From Helicobacter monodelphidis (lineage in GTDB: Bacteria; Campylobacterota; Campylobacteria; Campylobacterales; Helicobacteraceae): a DNA stretch of 61,403 nucleotides. The translations under genes were made by a program, and so were the position numbers. Numbering within the stretch: position 1 is the first letter of the stretch; the number at the start of each line of letters is the position of its first letter. Positions 16,649-24,286 of the stretch are shown here, in pieces. The notes under the pieces were generated by a model. It did no database searches, was not told the origin of the DNA, and was given only the letters and a program-made list of their open reading frames with translations. Location of the stretch: assembly GCF_003288845.1 (NCBI RefSeq), contig NZ_NHYN01000010.1, positions 1 to 61,403 on the forward strand. Reading direction: 5' to 3'.

Positions 16649-16972
16649 TTATTTTTTTGTTTCTAAGATGGATTGCTTTATCCACTCTAAATAAGCATTT
16701 GTGCCATCTATAATGGGTGTGACTATGATTTGTGGTAAATCATAAGAAGAATGCTTGCAGATTAAGTCTTGCAAAGATTCTTGGATATTCCGCATAGTCT
16801 TGCAAGAAAGTTTAACTTCTTGACTAATGCAAACTTCATTCTCCCAAATATAATAACTTTCAATAGGACATAATTGAACGCAAGCGGCATAGCGATGTTC
16901 AATTATGATTTTTGCAAGTTTAGATGCGATGGTATGATTCTCACAAGTAGTGGTGAGTTCAATATATTCCAT
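16649..16972 (-). CDS. cutA: CutA1 divalent-cation tolerance family protein
   Basis: A 107-residue ferredoxin-like trimeric protein. It has CutA features: TTTCENHTIASKLAKIIIEH at the start, RYAACVQLCPIESYYIWENE near residue 30, and EVKLSCKT with SYDLPQIIVTPIIDG further on. Originally linked to copper tolerance in E. coli, its exact role remains unclear. The ATG overlaps the previous stop as TGATG, so it is translationally coupled to the upstream membrane protein, and it precedes the ZnuA-like gene. The context suggests metal handling. Confidence 0.9.
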   Translation of the reverse strand: MEYIELTTTCENHTIASKLAKIIIEHRYAACVQLCPIESYYIWENEVCISQEVKLSCKTMRNIQESLQDLICKHSSYDLPQIIVTPIIDGTNAYLEWIKQSILETKK

Positions 16973-17286
16973 CAAACCTCACCCATACGTTTTTTGAGAT
17001 TCTTAAAATCCTGTCTTTGTTTTTCTTCTCTATCGCCGTCGCTACGCAATTTTTTCTTTTCTTCTAAACGTTCACTTTCTAAAAATGCTTGTCTCTCCCT
17101 TGCTTCCTTCATTTTCTGAATAAACTCCTCACGTTGTTTTGGATTTTGAAAAGTGATAGGCTTAAGCCATAGAATCGCCAACACAAATAAGAAAAAAAAT
17201 ATCGCAATTTGCATATTGCCCGTAAGATAATGCCAAGCAATTGCAACCATTCCTGCAATTAAGAATTTTAAAATAAATTGAAGCAT
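16972..17286 (-). CDS. Membrane-anchored coiled-coil protein, unknown
   Basis: A 104-residue protein. Two hydrophobic segments (about residues 3-20 and 26-43) form a hairpin. Then follows a highly charged helix from about residue 50 (EEFIQKMKEARERQAF through KKLRSDGDREEKQRQDFKNL) likely to form a coiled coil in the cytoplasm. I recognise no family. It sits between the cysteine-depleted HdrB-like gene (its ATG overlaps that gene's stop) and cutA. It may anchor a complex formed by its neighbours, but this is only inferred from operon structure. Confidence 0.75.
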   Translation of the reverse strand: MLQFILKFLIAGMVAIAWHYLTGNMQIAIFFFLFVLAILWLKPITFQNPKQREEFIQKMKEARERQAFLESERLEEKKKLRSDGDREEKQRQDFKNLKKRMGEV

Positions 17287-18098
17287 TATATCATTCCTAG
17301 CGGGATTTTATGAGAATCAGGTTTTTCGCCCATCAGTATCAAAAGCAATTCCGCGATGTGAATAATAGGAATATCCATTAGTTCCCTCCCTGCGGCTGAT
17401 TTAATTTTAGACTGATAGTTCTCAAAAAATGAGAATGCACTGAACGACATTGTTATAATAAAATCAATTCCTAAATCAGCCATTTGGTAATAAACCCTTG
17501 CATTCTCTTTTAATGCTCCTTCCAAATTGAAAGAAGAAAGATGAGCTACAGATTCAAAGTAACTCCGTGGTTGAATAATGTCTAGTTGTATTAACTTCCA
17601 AATCGTTTCTTGCAAGAATCGGTAGCGGTCGCCTTCGATGACTTTACGCAAAAGCGTGAAGGAAGAATGGCAAACTGTAGCCCTAAAACCACGCCAATTT
17701 TTTTGAAATTGCTTAGATAAAATATCTTGATGGAGATTTAAGAGTCCTGTAAAAATTTCTACTTCTTTGAGTGAATCTAACTCTTTAAGAATTGCTTGTG
17801 TTTGTAATGTGGGATCTTCTCGAATGGCTTTAATCGCAAGTAGAGCACTAATATAGCTACCTTCTTCAATAAATATCGGGGTAGAACCTTGATTTTTGAT
17901 GTGCAAGAGAGTTTCAAACCAGCTCATCGCCCATGCTTTTTTGGTGTGTAATGCAGGAAACAAGCCCTCCATTAAGTAATCTGGAGCGATAGAAATATGT
18001 TCATCTAAGGGTAGATTTAGTTTTTTAAGTAATCTTTGGCTACTCGTTTCAAATAGTCCATTTCTTTGTGTCCCGATAAGTGTGTAATGCTCTTTCAT
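17286..18098 (-). CDS. HdrB/SdhE-like (CCG-domain) protein without cluster cysteines
   Basis: A 270-residue protein. Its layout follows heterodisulfide reductase subunit B and the SdhE subunit of epsilonproteobacterial fumarate reductases. The start YTLIGTQRNGLFETSSQRLL corresponds to YxxxPGCS...S. ATVCHSSFTLLRKV near residue 140 replaces a CxxC region. GIDFIITMSFSAFSFFENYQ near residue 215 stands where GADxIVTxCPxCxxNLxxxQ is expected, and DIPIIHIAELLLILMGEKP is the normal family end. Almost all ligands of the two unusual 4Fe-4S clusters are missing, so redox catalysis is unlikely. It is directly coupled to the FrdB-like gene. The homology is judged by eye. Confidence 0.65.
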   Translation of the reverse strand: MKEHYTLIGTQRNGLFETSSQRLLKKLNLPLDEHISIAPDYLMEGLFPALHTKKAWAMSWFETLLHIKNQGSTPIFIEEGSYISALLAIKAIREDPTLQTQAILKELDSLKEVEIFTGLLNLHQDILSKQFQKNWRGFRATVCHSSFTLLRKVIEGDRYRFLQETIWKLIQLDIIQPRSYFESVAHLSSFNLEGALKENARVYYQMADLGIDFIITMSFSAFSFFENYQSKIKSAAGRELMDIPIIHIAELLLILMGEKPDSHKIPLGMI

Positions 18099-18784
18099 TA
18101 TTGTACCTCCGTAGCAATATTTTTCGCATAATCAATCCAAAAGGAGTTGTTGAGTGGATAACCTTGAAGAAGTGATTTTTGTAATGCAAGCAATGTAAAA
18201 TCAAATTCTTTTTTCTCGGGAAAAATACGTCCTTTAAGTAACATTGCATTCATTACGCCATTTGTAGGAGAATCAATCAGTTCATATAATTTATGTGCTT
18301 TTTTGGGGTGGTTTTTTGCCAGATTAGCGATAAAAATAAAAAATCCTTCACCCAAATAATCCTCAAGTGATTTTGAAATAGGTGTAAGAGAGAAAAATGG
18401 CATCAAGGAATCGTACATATCATATTCTTCTTGTGTTAATGTGCAGATTTTTTCCACTTGCTTTAAGCCTGTTTTTAGAAATTCACGATTAACGATAAGG
18501 TCATGTTGTGTAGCCTTAGGAGCGAAAGATTCTACTCTCCATTGATAACCAAACCTCTCACATAAAACACCAATCTCTACATCTTCATAGACTAGAATCC
18601 CATTAATAATAACACAGACAGATTTTTTATCATATCCAAAATCATCTAATTCGCTATCAAGTTGTTTGTAGAGGTCAGAAAGAAGCATTGTTTCTTGAAC
18701 GATTGTCGTATGACAACATTCATAAGCTAGATAGTGGAGTTTTATATTAAATCGCTGAAGTGTCAAATCAAGTTTAACTTTCAT
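18098..18784 (-). CDS. DUF5644-like protein resembling a cysteine-depleted FrdB/SdhB
   Basis: A 228-residue protein. Residues 1-100 look like the beta-grasp ferredoxin domain of fumarate reductase/succinate dehydrogenase iron-sulfur subunits: an opening beta strand KVKLDLTLQRFNIKLHYLAYE, VCVIINGILVYEDV (compare the usual VNGKPxLAC), and RVESFAPKATQHDLIVNREF (compare EPLxxFPVIxDLVVD). The CxxxxCxxC ligands are absent. The rest is helical and lacks the second and third cluster motifs. The stop of this gene overlaps the start of the HdrB-like gene by 1 base. The pair mirrors subunits B and E of Mfr-type complexes. I recall the name DUF5644 for such Helicobacter proteins but could not check it. 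Confidence 0.6.
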   Translation of the reverse strand: MKVKLDLTLQRFNIKLHYLAYECCHTTIVQETMLLSDLYKQLDSELDDFGYDKKSVCVIINGILVYEDVEIGVLCERFGYQWRVESFAPKATQHDLIVNREFLKTGLKQVEKICTLTQEEYDMYDSLMPFFSLTPISKSLEDYLGEGFFIFIANLAKNHPKKAHKLYELIDSPTNGVMNAMLLKGRIFPEKKEFDFTLLALQKSLLQGYPLNNSFWIDYAKNIATEVQ

Positions 18785-18787
18785 TTG

Positions 18788-19246
18788 CTATCCTTTATTT
18801 GTTAAATATTGGTTGAGTGGGTTTTGCAAGAATGCACGCATAGAATCTTGAACGCCCTTATTTTGCTTTTCCTCTTCAAGGTGTCCAAATGGATTCATAA
18901 ACAATATACGTTCTGGAAAATCTTTTTCTAGTTGTGCATTTTCACAAATTTGTACGATGGAATTAAGAGGCACGGTTACAAAACTTCCTTCGCTATTTTC
19001 ACCAAACCCTGCTTCAAACACTAAAGAGTCTTCAAGCATTTCTACACTTTCAAGTGTATACCCCTGCAAGACAAAGAGACTTAAATCAGGTAAACCCTTA
19101 ACCACAGGTAAAAGAGGATTAAAGGTAACCTTTGATACTTTACATACAATCGCAAAAGTAACTTTTTGCGTTAAGAGATATTTAATAATTTCTTTTGCGT
19201 AATTTTCAATGATTTGTTTCAGCCCTTTTTCTGTTGCTGTTAACAT
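18788..19246 (-). CDS. Unknown protein, possible SspB-like ClpXP adaptor fold
   Basis: A 152-residue soluble protein. The middle part (ESVEMLEDSLVFEAGFGENS followed by EGSFVTVPLNSIVQIC, residues about 72-108) resembles SspB, whose core reads as a beta strand, FxARFGG, then xVPxxAVxxIYA. SspB delivers ssrA-tagged proteins to ClpXP and ends in a short ClpX-binding tail. This protein ends in QNPLNQYLTNKG after a flexible charged segment, which could play that role. The likeness is limited and unproven. The gene is first in the run SspB-like, FrdB-like, HdrB-like, membrane protein, cutA, and follows pepF by 10 bases. Confidence 0.5.
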   Translation of the reverse strand: MLTATEKGLKQIIENYAKEIIKYLLTQKVTFAIVCKVSKVTFNPLLPVVKGLPDLSLFVLQGYTLESVEMLEDSLVFEAGFGENSEGSFVTVPLNSIVQICENAQLEKDFPERILFMNPFGHLEEEKQNKGVQDSMRAFLQNPLNQYLTNKG

Positions 19247-19256
19247 AATCGCCCCT

Positions 19257-20987
19257 TTATTTATTTGTAATAATTTTTTTAAATTCTTCTAAGAGAATGT
19301 GGATCTCTTGAATACCTATCTTCCAAAATTCTTCACTTTCAATATCAAACCCAAATAACGCAACCAATTCTCGTGGCGAACGACTGCCACCAGCAGAAAG
19401 GAATTCAACATATTTTTGTGTAAATTCTGCTCTATTGTTCTGATTGCGACGATACAAGCCAAATAAAGCCAAAACTAAAAGTTGTCCATAGCTATATGCA
19501 TAGCAATAAAAAGGGCTATGGATAAAATGTGGAATATAGCTCCACCAAAGGGCATAATGTGATGTGAGGGTTAGGCTATCACCGAACATTTTTTGGTTTT
19601 CTTCTTGCCAAATATGATTAAATTGTTCTGCACTCAATTCTCCTTGTTCTGCATGAATTCTGCGTTCAAAATTCGTAAACACAGTTTGTCTAAATAATGT
19701 TGCAAAAATATCTTCAAGTTTTGCTGCATATAAAGCAGCCTTTTCCTTGCCTTTTAGCTGATTTTTTATTTTATCGAAGAGTAACATTTCTGCAAAAACA
19801 GAGGCAGTTTCGGAAGTTGTCAGCGGTGTGTGTGCGTTCAGACAACCTACCTTTTTAGATAATTCTTGATGGATAGCATGCCCTAACTCATGTGCCATTG
19901 TGAAAACATCTTTACGATTATTGGTATGGTTTAGTAAAATAAATGGATGGGCTTTAGGTACGGTAGAATGCGAAAATGCTCCACTTTGCTTATTTTCGCG
20001 TGGGTGAGAATCTATCCATTGTTCATTAAATGCTTTTGTTGCAATTTCTGCAAAAAGTGGTGAGAATTCTTGAAATGACTCCAAGACAATTTTTTTAGAA
20101 TACTCAAAATCAAATCGTATTTTATTGTTGAATAAGGGGGCGTATCGATCATAGTCATAAAGTGTGTCATAACCCATTAATTCTTTTTTAATTGTGTAAA
20201 ATTCAGCAACAATGCCCATATTTTGATTCACGACTTGAATCATTGTATCAACGCTATGTTGTGTTGTTTGGTTATCGATATGACGCGGTTCTTCTGGCGT
20301 TGTGTATTGTCTAATTTCACCGATAATACTCCATTCTTTTCGCACAATATTAAGAATATAGGCAAATAAATCTTTTTCTTTTTTTAGGACTTGAGTAAAA
20401 GCCCTTGCTGCTTTTTTGCGTTTATGCCTTTTTGTGTGATGGAGTTGGCTTAGGATTTCTTCTTCACTATATTCTTGATTTTCCAAAGGAACTTTTAGGC
20501 GACTAAAATGTTCACTAAAGAGACGCGAAAAAGCATTTGCACCGACAGGTGAGAGTTTGAGTATGATCCGTTCTTCAGCATCGCTCCTTTGGTGTTTATG
20601 ATTTTCAACAATGAGTGAGAGGTAGTAAGCGTAACGGGGAGCGTGTTTAATGAAATATTGCGATTGTGTCGGTGTAAGATTCCCAAATTCAAGCTCAAAA
20701 AATAAGAGATGTTCCATTGTTGCATTTACATGAAGTTCGCATTCAGAAAGCATTGCCCCTTCAGTTGTTTGTGATGCAAAACGCAAGTAAGCATAACTCA
20801 TTATTCTTTCTAGGGATTCTATAATATCTTCATATTTATTAAGTGCGGTTTCAAATTCTTCGGCTTTGAGTTTCGCTAATTTGCCTTTGTACTGTTCTTC
20901 AAAAGAAATTGCACTTTGCCTAGCGATATTTTTTGTCTCTTGTAGTTGTTTTTGATTTTTAAAAAGAATATCTAAATCCCACTCCAT
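19257..20987 (-). CDS. pepF: Oligoendopeptidase F family (M3) metallopeptidase
   Basis: A cytoplasmic zinc peptidase of 576 residues. The HExxH motif is MAHELGHAIHQELSKK near residue 367, with the third ligand glutamate in TSETASVFAEMLLF about 28 residues on, as in clan MA/M3. The N-terminal half is the helical lid. Family enzymes cut peptides of about 7-20 residues, recycling peptides or removing signal peptides. The gene heads the downstream run that includes the SspB-like protein, so a link to protein turnover is conceivable. The upstream region contains a terminator-like hairpin at 21140. Confidence 0.92.
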   Translation of the reverse strand: MEWDLDILFKNQKQLQETKNIARQSAISFEEQYKGKLAKLKAEEFETALNKYEDIIESLERIMSYAYLRFASQTTEGAMLSECELHVNATMEHLLFFELEFGNLTPTQSQYFIKHAPRYAYYLSLIVENHKHQRSDAEERIILKLSPVGANAFSRLFSEHFSRLKVPLENQEYSEEEILSQLHHTKRHKRKKAARAFTQVLKKEKDLFAYILNIVRKEWSIIGEIRQYTTPEEPRHIDNQTTQHSVDTMIQVVNQNMGIVAEFYTIKKELMGYDTLYDYDRYAPLFNNKIRFDFEYSKKIVLESFQEFSPLFAEIATKAFNEQWIDSHPRENKQSGAFSHSTVPKAHPFILLNHTNNRKDVFTMAHELGHAIHQELSKKVGCLNAHTPLTTSETASVFAEMLLFDKIKNQLKGKEKAALYAAKLEDIFATLFRQTVFTNFERRIHAEQGELSAEQFNHIWQEENQKMFGDSLTLTSHYALWWSYIPHFIHSPFYCYAYSYGQLLVLALFGLYRRNQNNRAEFTQKYVEFLSAGGSRSPRELVALFGFDIESEEFWKIGIQEIHILLEEFKKIITNK

Positions 20988-21677: not shown

Positions 21678-23207
21678 CTAGCAAATTTCTAAAGCTTGCA
21701 ATAAAGTTAATCTCTCTTCTATGAATTCTTTGAATGCGTCTTGTAGAATTTGAAAACTTTTTGCATAGTCAATTTGTTCGTTACCATTAGCAAGAAGCCT
21801 ATTTTGCGAGGTTAGAATTTCTAAGACAAATGTAATGATTTGGTGAGTATCTGAAAAAAGTTTCTGTCCTTGAATGAAAAGTTGTTCGACTTCTGAAACG
21901 ACGATACCTCCACCTGTAATGGGAGAGGCAGCATAGATGCTTGACTTTTCGTGCATTTGACGCTCAAATAAATGGGTATTGAATTTTTTTGTTTGCTGTT
22001 GAAGTTGTTGATTTGGTTTTTGTGCGGGCATAACTAAACCTTGATGGATAATTACGCATAAAGAAGCAAGAAATTCTCTAAAGGGAAGTTTGCAATGTTC
22101 CATTATTTCAAATCCACTTTTTGGACGATAAGAATCTGTTGTGAGGAAATCTAGTATAACCAAAATAAAGCGATAAAAAATATTCGTTCCCTCTTGAGAA
22201 GTGCCTTTGAAGGTTTTGGGAAGCTTAATGAGCGTAAAAAATGTGTTAGAAATTTTTGCAATTCCTTCTTGTATGCCTAATGTTTGCTTCCCTCGCATAA
22301 AAATATCTAATCTAAATTGTCTATTGATACAATAATCCTTTATTTGTTCTTTAAAGATATCATCTTGTATCTGTTTTAAGGAGGTGAGTTCTAAAGAGTC
22401 TATATCCATATCAATGTGGTCAAGAATCTTTCCGCTAGCAGCAAAAGAACACTTGTTTGATTCTAATTTTTTAACCATTTCTGTAAAGTAGCAACAATTC
22501 CAATCTTGATTTAGATATTCGTGGGCAATGTATGCAACATTATGTTGTTTGAGTTCTGCTAAGAATTGTGGGTAATCAGGGAATGCTTTTGTGAAAGAGG
22601 TTTGTTTATTTAAGAACTCCTCAACAAAAGCGATACTTTGGGTAATACGTTGTTCCGCACTTCCACTTGTATTTTGAAAATACCCCATTAGTAGTTCTCT
22701 GATTGGATGTTTTTTTGCCCAGCCAGGAAAGGTATTGTAGCTAATATAAACAATACCTCCAACTTTAAGGAATTTTCTGATTATTTTTAAAATAACTTCT
22801 TGGTTTTGAATGCTTACCCAACTCCATACACCATGTAAAACAATAATGTCAAAAAAGGTATTTTCTGAATGGAGTCGTTCATATAGTTCTTCAAAGCTAT
22901 CATCAAAAATTCTTGCTTTTGCACCACTTGCCTGTGCAAATTCTATAGCATTTTTAACATGGTTTGGGTTGAAATCTATTCCCATAAAATCTCCATCATT
23001 GCCCGCTGCATGGATATTGAAGCTACTCCCCTTACCAAATCCAAGTTCAAGATAACTGAGGTTTTTGATAGGTAAGATGGAATCCGCATGATTTATTTTT
23101 ACTCCCGCGAGCGTAAGGTTTAATTGTAGCAATAAGGGACTCATTTCTGCTAAATAACCATCAACATATTCTAACTCCGTAAAATAGCCCTCATGCCATT
23201 CTTTCAT
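21678..23207 (-). CDS. SAM-dependent methyltransferase with regulatory domain (PKMT-like)
   Basis: A 509-residue protein. The N-terminal class I methyltransferase has motif I LELGFGKGSS near residue 50, an acidic FMGIDFNPNH and IIVLHGVWSWVS. The region from about residue 210 matches the layout of proteins with a methyltransferase regulatory domain, and the C-terminus is helical. The same architecture is known from rickettsial lysine methyltransferases that modify outer-membrane protein B, so protein methylation is one possibility; other substrates cannot be excluded. The ATG at 23207 with TAAGGAG is clear, and a longer frame upstream is not supported. It lies just after an LptF/G permease. 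Confidence 0.78.
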   Translation of the reverse strand: MKEWHEGYFTELEYVDGYLAEMSPLLLQLNLTLAGVKINHADSILPIKNLSYLELGFGKGSSFNIHAAGNDGDFMGIDFNPNHVKNAIEFAQASGAKARIFDDSFEELYERLHSENTFFDIIVLHGVWSWVSIQNQEVILKIIRKFLKVGGIVYISYNTFPGWAKKHPIRELLMGYFQNTSGSAEQRITQSIAFVEEFLNKQTSFTKAFPDYPQFLAELKQHNVAYIAHEYLNQDWNCCYFTEMVKKLESNKCSFAASGKILDHIDMDIDSLELTSLKQIQDDIFKEQIKDYCINRQFRLDIFMRGKQTLGIQEGIAKISNTFFTLIKLPKTFKGTSQEGTNIFYRFILVILDFLTTDSYRPKSGFEIMEHCKLPFREFLASLCVIIHQGLVMPAQKPNQQLQQQTKKFNTHLFERQMHEKSSIYAASPITGGGIVVSEVEQLFIQGQKLFSDTHQIITFVLEILTSQNRLLANGNEQIDYAKSFQILQDAFKEFIEERLTLLQALEIC

Positions 23208-23224
23208 TAAAAACTCCTTAATTC

Positions 23225-24286
23225 TTAGTTTATCTTTGTTGTAAAATAAATTCCAACTAACCACCATAAGCACATTGGCAATAAAAGACTCCACTCGGGG
23301 TGGATGAAACCGCTTTGTGCAAAACGAGAGAGTGCAAAGAAAATTCCCCATGAAACAAGAGCAATAAGAATGGAGCGAAAAATATAAAATGTCAATTCTC
23401 CATAACGCGTTGTGAGTGGCATTTTAGTAAAGACTAAAACTAAAACAGGGAAAACAAAGAGTGGAAAGATTGTTAGGGAATAAAGGATTCCACGAATTTT
23501 AGGAGATTGGATTTGTTCATTATTGAGCAGTATTAATGATGAAATTGCATCAATAATACTTACAGAACCGCTTTTTTCATAAATAATATCTAAAATTTTT
23601 GGACGAAATCCCTCTAAGATACCCATTGTTTCATCTTGCTGAATTTGCATAATTTTTTCTTTTGCATCAATATCTGGATTTAATGTAAAGATAGTTACAT
23701 TTTTCAAGTTCCATCGGTTATTTTCAAAAAATGCTTCTTTTGCTTGAATGAGCTGGGTAAGATTCTTACCTTGTAGCGTATAGACGCGTATATCATTTGC
23801 TTTTTGTAATAAAGGAAAAATTTTATCAAAATAAATATAATTATTTTGATGCTTAACGAGTAATTCACCTTTATTTCTTGAGCTTGCATTTTGGTCGATA
23901 ATGAGGTCAACATTCTCCTTCGCGTATGCAAAGGGTGTTGCGTTTAGGGCAATAAAACCAAGAATACAAATAAAGGCTGTACAAAAAATGGGTATTGCAA
24001 TCCTTTTCTTACTGTATCCAAGAGATAAAAAAGCCGTAAATTCATTGTTCTTAAGGAGGGCGGAAAGCAAGACAACTTCTGCCAAAAGTAAGGAAATAGG
24101 AAAAATAAAGCCACAAGCATACATAAAGTCATAGAGAACAAAAAGGACAATCAGGTTTGCAGAATCTGGTAAATCGTTAGAATATTTCAAGGTATCAATA
24201 CAGACAAAAAAAATCCCTAAACCAAAAGTAATAATAATAAGGTATTTTAAATAAACACGAATGAGAAAGAGGTAACTAAGTGGCAT
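23225..24286 (-). CDS. LptF/LptG (YjgP/YjgQ) family permease
   Basis: The product is 353 residues with three membrane segments near the N-terminus (about residues 10-30, 48-75 and 98-118), a periplasmic beta-rich middle, and three more near the C-terminus. The part LLSALLKNNEFTAFLSLGYS with KKRIAIP is the conserved cytoplasmic helix that meets the ATPase LptB. LptFG with LptB2 extracts lipopolysaccharide from the inner membrane and passes it to LptC. One gene only is present here; the partner permease is elsewhere. The start at 24286 overlaps the pth stop by one base (TAATG). Confidence 0.88.
   Translation of the reverse strand: MPLSYLFLIRVYLKYLIIITFGLGIFFVCIDTLKYSNDLPDSANLIVLFVLYDFMYACGFIFPISLLLAEVVLLSALLKNNEFTAFLSLGYSKKRIAIPIFCTAFICILGFIALNATPFAYAKENVDLIIDQNASSRNKGELLVKHQNNYIYFDKIFPLLQKANDIRVYTLQGKNLTQLIQAKEAFFENNRWNLKNVTIFTLNPDIDAKEKIMQIQQDETMGILEGFRPKILDIIYEKSGSVSIIDAISSLILLNNEQIQSPKIRGILYSLTIFPLFVFPVLVLVFTKMPLTTRYGELTFYIFRSILIALVSWGIFFALSRFAQSGFIHPEWSLLLPMCLWWLVGIYFTTKIN

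Follow-up and report, generated by a model that had tools for sequence, protein, structure and literature searches.

Paired SdhB- and SdhE-like proteins of Helicobacter monodelphidis and other Campylobacterota lack the cluster ligands of respiratory iron-sulfur subunits

What keeps a pair of genes intact when the proteins that they encode resemble two subunits of a respiratory enzyme and have none of the cysteines that hold iron-sulfur clusters? The question is raised by two genes in a 61,403-nucleotide stretch of the Helicobacter monodelphidis genome (contig NZ_NHYN01000010.1, positions 1 to 61,403; the whole stretch is referred to here as the window). We use the label "ghost" for a protein that is SdhB/FrdB-like or SdhE/HdrB-like but is without cluster cysteines, and ghost A and ghost B for the pair in the window. 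Ghost A (228 amino acids; positions 18098 to 18784, minus strand) is SdhB/FrdB-like, with the DUF5644 domain in its C-terminal half, and ghost B (270 amino acids; positions 17286 to 18098, minus strand) is HdrB/SdhE-like, lacks the CCG cysteines, and contains the Pfam domain HdrB-like_C. The gene order at the locus is pepF, c2, ghost A, ghost B, c3, and cutA. A preliminary description, made from the sequence alone, had proposed two coupled, intact genes, and both open reading frames are indeed present, with TAATG overlaps that couple ghost A to ghost B and ghost B to c3. No gene for a flavoprotein (SdhA/FrdA) was found among the neighbors of the pair within the window, and the window genome has its closest relatives among Helicobacteraceae metagenome-assembled genomes (MAGs). 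Our overall explanation, to which we assign a probability of roughly 0.55, is that the two proteins make up a cofactor-free SdhB/SdhE paralogue module with a non-redox accessory role.

Folds and former cluster sites of the two proteins

Pfam assigns ghost A to DUF5644 (PF18712; E value of 3.9e-14, 53.0 bits against a curated cut-off of 25) and ghost B to HdrB-like_C (PF22196; E value of 9.1e-19, 67.7 bits against a curated cut-off of 33.4). In single-sequence searches of the PDB, both proteins match one chain, 3kwl_A, a 514-residue uncharacterized protein of H. pylori; the pair therefore also occurs in nature as a single fused protein, whose structure has been solved. Profiles built from ghost relatives match FrdB in the case of A (1kf6_B; E value of 9.1e-6) and HdrB in the case of B (E value of 1.1e-17), and profile-profile comparison with intact subunits from the same phylum (hhalign) gives values of 1.6e-27 for A against SdhB and 2.9e-27 for B against SdhE.

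AlphaFold (AF2) models predicted from the family alignments are confident for both proteins (pLDDT of 92.5 for A and 90.2 for B). The best structural match to the model of ghost A is 3kwl (Z score of 17.8); iron-sulfur subunits of complex II come next (Z scores of at most 14.0 over about 200 residues), among them FrdB of W. succinogenes (1qlb_B; Z score of 14.0, 201 residues, 3.5 Å), followed by ubiquitin-like proteins that cover the beta-grasp part only (Z score of about 8). By fold comparison and hhalign, ghost A has both domains of SdhB/FrdB, that is, the beta-grasp ferredoxin domain and the helical dicluster domain. The model of ghost B superposes on HdrB of a methanogen (8rvy_B; Z score of 24.6, 263 residues, 3.2 Å), which gives it the two-lobed HdrB fold, and on 3KWL (Z score of 24.0); after HdrB, its next-best folds are Asp/Glu racemases, a middling match with a Z score of 8.6. 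The HdrB/SdhE-like and FrdB-like layouts that the preliminary description had read by eye are thus the folds that profiles and predicted structures return, with related folds found for both proteins. Chance resemblance to SdhB and SdhE is ruled out by the profile-profile values of about 1e-27, the profile matches to the PDB, and the fold Z scores.

To compare the cluster ligands, 41 ghosts were aligned with intact SdhB and intact SdhE proteins, four of each. Neither window protein has a cysteine in any ligand column, and all nine aligned ligand columns of ghost B in the window are occupied by other residues. Where intact SdhB has the loop SCRHGICGxC, ghost A has only a short turn (residues 52 to 56; positions 18617 to 18631, minus strand): the [2Fe-2S] loop, whose cysteines had been described as lost, is gone altogether, being deleted and not merely substituted in 41 of 41 ghosts (a gap at the first two ligand columns). 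The former first 4Fe-4S cysteine block (residues 124 to 134; positions 18383 to 18415, minus strand) now reads Y124, L127, F130, and T134, with no cysteine at any of the four columns in any of the 41 ghosts; the former second cluster block (residues 180 to 190; positions 18215 to 18247, minus strand) reads A180, L183, and F188, with cysteine in 0 to 3 of the 41 ghosts per column. Outside the deleted loop, no ligand column of A thus has cysteine in more than three ghosts, and the former 4Fe positions are mainly Tyr, Leu, Phe, Ile, or a small residue, residue 188 being aromatic in all 27 full-length ghosts.

The first ligand motif of intact SdhE, TGCT, is replaced in ghost B by GTQR (residues 9 to 12; positions 18063 to 18074, minus strand; hhalign), CNTC by EEGS (residues 78 to 81; positions 17856 to 17867, minus strand), and CPLC by SFSA (residues 218 to 221; positions 17436 to 17447, minus strand), the latter two in both hhalign and the ligand alignment. 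Earlier residue readings of all three sites (GTQR, E78-E-G-S81, and S218-F-S-A221) therefore hold. Directly after SFSA, F222 is conserved in 27 of 27 full-length ghosts. Other residues are common to the ghosts and intact SdhB/SdhE (e.g., F12, D95, and G176 of A and D208 and R238 of B), as expected for a fold kept without its cofactor. Judged from these alignments, ghost A and ghost B almost certainly carry no Fe-S clusters. Ligand loss confined to the lineage of the window is ruled out, the loss being common to all 41 ghosts compared across the phylum.

The residues that now occupy the old cluster sites could instead bind another metal or a small molecule, with the acidic and invariant polar residues of B forming a new site. 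Position 78 of B, formerly a cysteine ligand, is acidic (E or D) in all 27 full-length ghosts, D208, D212, R238, and H263 are invariant among the same 27, and the racemases that follow HdrB in the fold comparison, although only a middling match, would fit such a site. Three of these invariant residues (D208, D212, and R238), however, are also found in intact SdhE and are thus likely structural, most truncated ghosts lack the region of E/D78, and hydrophobic residues predominate at the ligand positions of A, all of which makes a new binding site improbable.

Origin and distribution of the ghost pair

A maximum-likelihood tree of 58 concatenated A and B rows, 41 of them ghosts, places all 41 ghosts in one clade (support of 100/100) that attaches to the Sdh1 type (class-E SdhBE) rather than to the Mfr type (100/99); several switches between fused and split ghosts are seen. 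The ghost clade sits on a long stem branch (1.5), so that long-branch effects are possible and the exact attachment of the clade among intact SdhB/E is less sure than its monophyly. Even so, full-length and truncated ghosts have independent derived features in common: the loop deletion, P160 and D/E146 of A, and F213, F222, and H263 of B. Intact SdhB-SdhE proteins of the Campylobacterota are of two well separated kinds, one Wolinella Mfr-like (L128 to L131, L134, and L135) and another class-E type (L095 to L099, L132, L133, and L138 to L142), with which the ghosts group.

A fused, truncated ghost stands beside an intact sdhA-sdhB-sdhE at four loci (L095, L096, L098, and L099) from four other families. 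It precedes sdhABE on the same strand at two of them, by 40 bp in L096, where it opens the operon, and by 230 bp in L098; in L099 it is divergent, with a gap of about 115 bp, and in L095 the distance is about 2.8 kb. This adjacency in four families points to tandem duplication. The ghost of L099 exceeds the curated Pfam cut-offs for Fer2_3, DUF5644, and HdrB-like_C simultaneously. Very probably, from gene order and phylogeny, the ghost pair arose as paralogues of SdhB and SdhE of class-E SdhABE through duplication at the sdhABE locus. A single duplication there would have been followed by loss of all cluster ligands in the common ancestor of the ghosts, in which the [2Fe-2S] loop would have been removed, the remaining cysteines of A replaced by mostly hydrophobic or small residues, and the cluster cysteines of B replaced by polar, acidic, or small residues. 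In family f10 (L090 to L093 and L100), the order is ghostA, ghostB, desulfoferrodoxin, which is that of L098 (ghost, sdhABE, desulfoferrodoxin) with sdhABE missing. Side by side, family f10 and L098 capture the loss of sdhABE from its place between the ghost and desulfoferrodoxin.

The window genome carries FrdC, plus an intact FrdB match on another contig; a search of the genome gave no match to SdhE at an E value of 0.001. Among the Helicobacteraceae of the phylum sample, intact SdhE is present only in the Wolinella-like genome G166, the weaker SdhE matches in this family being the ghosts themselves or other proteins at low score. Whether carriers also have a full Mfr/Sdh set, a question posed in the preliminary description, is thereby answered in the negative for the window genome and for nearly all Helicobacteraceae sampled. 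Since nearly all of these keep the ghost without intact SdhE, a tie between the ghost and possession of SdhABE/Mfr is ruled out.

Ghost A of the window matches 110 of 200 genomes in an even sample of the Campylobacterota, a count to which very distant intact SdhB could also contribute. At each of the 41 ghost loci that were read in detail, A is followed directly by B or the two are fused, and across 121 Helicobacteraceae genomes, both are present in 99, both are absent in 20, and only two are discordant (G257, a 58%-complete MAG in which the match is located at the end of a contig, and G087, with a remnant of B); the group therefore does keep the two genes together. Losses are spread over several Helicobacteraceae genera, such that the pair, having been lost several times, is dispensable. 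Within the Campylobacteraceae and families f5 to f8, the N-terminal half of B is missing from most ghosts, and the full B fold is thus not required everywhere.

Absence from 20 of 121 Helicobacteraceae genomes and the remnant in G087 might suggest that A and B are decaying and without function. The selection test refutes this: dN/dS is 0.07 to 0.21 in eight close pairs, denoting purifying selection and excluding pseudogene decay. Reading frames are also intact in nearly all carriers of A and B, and residues are invariant across families, so that decay is hardly credible. Being intact, under selection, retained and lost as a pair, and repeatedly fused and split, the two genes serve a purpose that is not Fe-S electron transfer, in agreement with the earlier view that they are kept for another purpose; it is highly probable, on the same comparative grounds, that ghost A and ghost B act as one unit.

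Proposed role and relation to known proteins

The repeated tolerance of fusion suggests that the two halves dock through the surface that joins SdhB and SdhE, which the ghosts would have retained along with the inherited fold. The pair would then form one metal-free, two-part body, probably located in the cytosol, in which the beta-grasp domain of A, now loop-less, and the two-lobed face of B may be the sites where other proteins bind, and the module would most likely assist or regulate respiratory metabolism. A non-redox accessory role is, on the sequence comparisons, the probable one; that the partner is the fumarate-reductase complex is doubtful.

A more specific reading has the pair act as a pseudo-subunit on fumarate respiration, with ghost A at the SdhB/FrdB site serving as an assembly chaperone, a placeholder, or an inhibitor of FrdA/SdhA. 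It would account for the ghost bordering sdhABE in four other families and opening the operon in L096, for the f10 order that equals that of L098 with sdhABE gone, for the FrdC and FrdB of the host genome, and for the hydrogen induction of HP0468 that is reported secondhand, from earlier work, in PMC6090961. Nevertheless, Helicobacteraceae that lost A and B still keep FrdC, and no flavoprotein gene lies beside the pair in the window. In established complex II structures, no part of SdhB comes closer to the flavin and its flavoprotein than the [2Fe-2S] loop. Lacking this loop, ghost A has probably lost the usual mode of docking to a flavoprotein, an argument against docking at that site, and we consider the pseudo-subunit reading possible but rather unlikely. 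Only tentatively do we suggest that a phylum-level pseudo-complex-II module tunes how the fumarate-respiring complex assembles or how active it is and was kept where the parent SdhABE was later lost.

The cofactor-free paralogue module can be set against four known systems. From its length and family, 3KWL is presumably HP0468, and it has the same DUF5644 and HdrB-like_C composition, ghosts A and B of the window matching its N- and C-terminal halves; it is one fused chain, whereas the window has two genes, and the papers covered by our search say nothing of its origin or meaning. The SdhB and SdhE subunits of class-E SdhABE, or 8-methylmenaquinol:fumarate reductase (Wolinella and Campylobacter; PMC2680327), have homologous folds, the same B-then-E order, and common ancestry with the ghosts, but intact class-E SdhB holds three clusters and ghost A none, intact SdhE has a 10-cysteine motif and ghost B is without CX(n)CCGX(n)CX2C motifs, and no flavoprotein gene adjoins the pair in the window. 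Ghost B also superposes on HdrB of methanogen heterodisulfide reductase (5ODC and 8RVY; Z scores of about 24 over 262 to 263 residues) but lacks the CCG cysteines and, hence, would have no noncubane clusters and no CoM-S-S-CoB chemistry. Finally, ghost A superposes on FrdB of fumarate reductase (1QLB and 1KF6; Z scores of 13.6 to 14.0 over 201 to 205 residues), differing in the absent [2Fe-2S] loop and the replacement of the other cluster cysteines.

Published mentions of the family are few and give no mechanism: 3KWL appears in a structure list (PMC3397514), HP0468 was flagged in a genome-wide study of association with gastric cancer (PMC6090961, which cites earlier work for its induction by molecular hydrogen in H. 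pylori), and HP0468, named as a DUF5644 protein, is listed among H. pylori proteins conserved or enriched in Helicobacter species with sheathed flagella (PMC9570263). The ghost pair is also carried by Wolinella-like and Campylobacter-like genomes. Bacteria of both these kinds are not known to have flagellar sheaths. In the literature covered, which lay mostly outside subscription journals, no title or abstract combining HdrB or SdhE with Helicobacter describes the ghosts, an absence that is weak evidence, and nothing was found on HP0467 or on the guessed C. jejuni tags Cj1459 and Cj1460. The HdrB likeness of the C-terminal domain is already known, being recorded in the Pfam name HdrB-like_C; in this literature, we found no description of the N-terminal half as an SdhB relative, of an origin that it shares with SdhE, or of ligand loss throughout the phylum. 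The present assignment supplies the evolutionary identity of a family, widespread, split or fused, in the Campylobacterota (Helicobacter, Campylobacter, and many relatives), for which a structure has been available, and the label "unknown function" in use, since 2010. The family is also a clear example of respiratory iron-sulfur subunits that have become a conserved pair free of metal, and in some genomes the ancestor type and the ghost are still side by side.

Neighboring genes

On either side of the pair, and on the same minus strand, lie c3 (positions 16972 to 17286), downstream of ghost B and encoding a 104-amino-acid membrane protein with a coiled coil, and c2 (positions 18788 to 19246), upstream of ghost A and encoding a 152-amino-acid protein that we call HP0469-like from what we take to be the H. 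pylori gene order (pepF, HP0469, HP0468). They are followed upstream by pepF (oligoendopeptidase F, Pfam Peptidase_M3; positions 19257 to 20987, minus strand), the first gene of a block, pepF-c2-A-B-c3, whose order is conserved in the Helicobacteraceae and of which c3 is one of the most stable members.

This conserved order and the tight coupling of the genes could mean that A and B belong to a four-gene system together with c3 and a ClpXP-adaptor-like c2, as the preliminary description had envisaged. The neighbors, however, stay where the pair is lost: c3 is present in 120 and c2 in 115 of 121 Helicobacteraceae genomes, including those without A and B, and at the empty sites, the two remain and abut, mostly 0 to 17 bp apart or overlapping. 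The reverse loss occurs in genus g8 (L159 and L160), in which c2 is gone and pepF, A, B, and c3 are still together, and outside the Helicobacteraceae, A and B are found without c2 or c3 nearby. The neighbors are thus not obligate partners of the ghost pair, and no conserved operon partner of the pair was found across the phylum. As for a ClpXP adaptor, c2 matched no Pfam model above threshold, its profile had no credible match in the PDB, and the SspB model (PF04386) found nothing in the host genome, leaving that idea without sequence support. We therefore regard the four-gene system as very unlikely. The notion that a redox pair was turned into a structural or regulatory one accordingly survives in part: retention for a use other than Fe-S chemistry is supported, and the joint system with the neighbors is not.

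Elsewhere in the phylum, in Campylobacter, the pair adjoins a gene for a protein, c19, that has no similarity to c2 or c3. The pair in the Campylobacter-like genus g22 (L081, L082, and L083) is flanked by a divergent thiL-truD and by a gene for an RsmD-like methylase, behind which come flgI, a gene for a rod-binding protein, and flgN. In the window itself, positions 21678 to 23351 (minus strand) encode a 557-amino-acid protein with a SAM methyltransferase domain and a predicted methyltransferase regulatory domain (MethyTransf_Reg).
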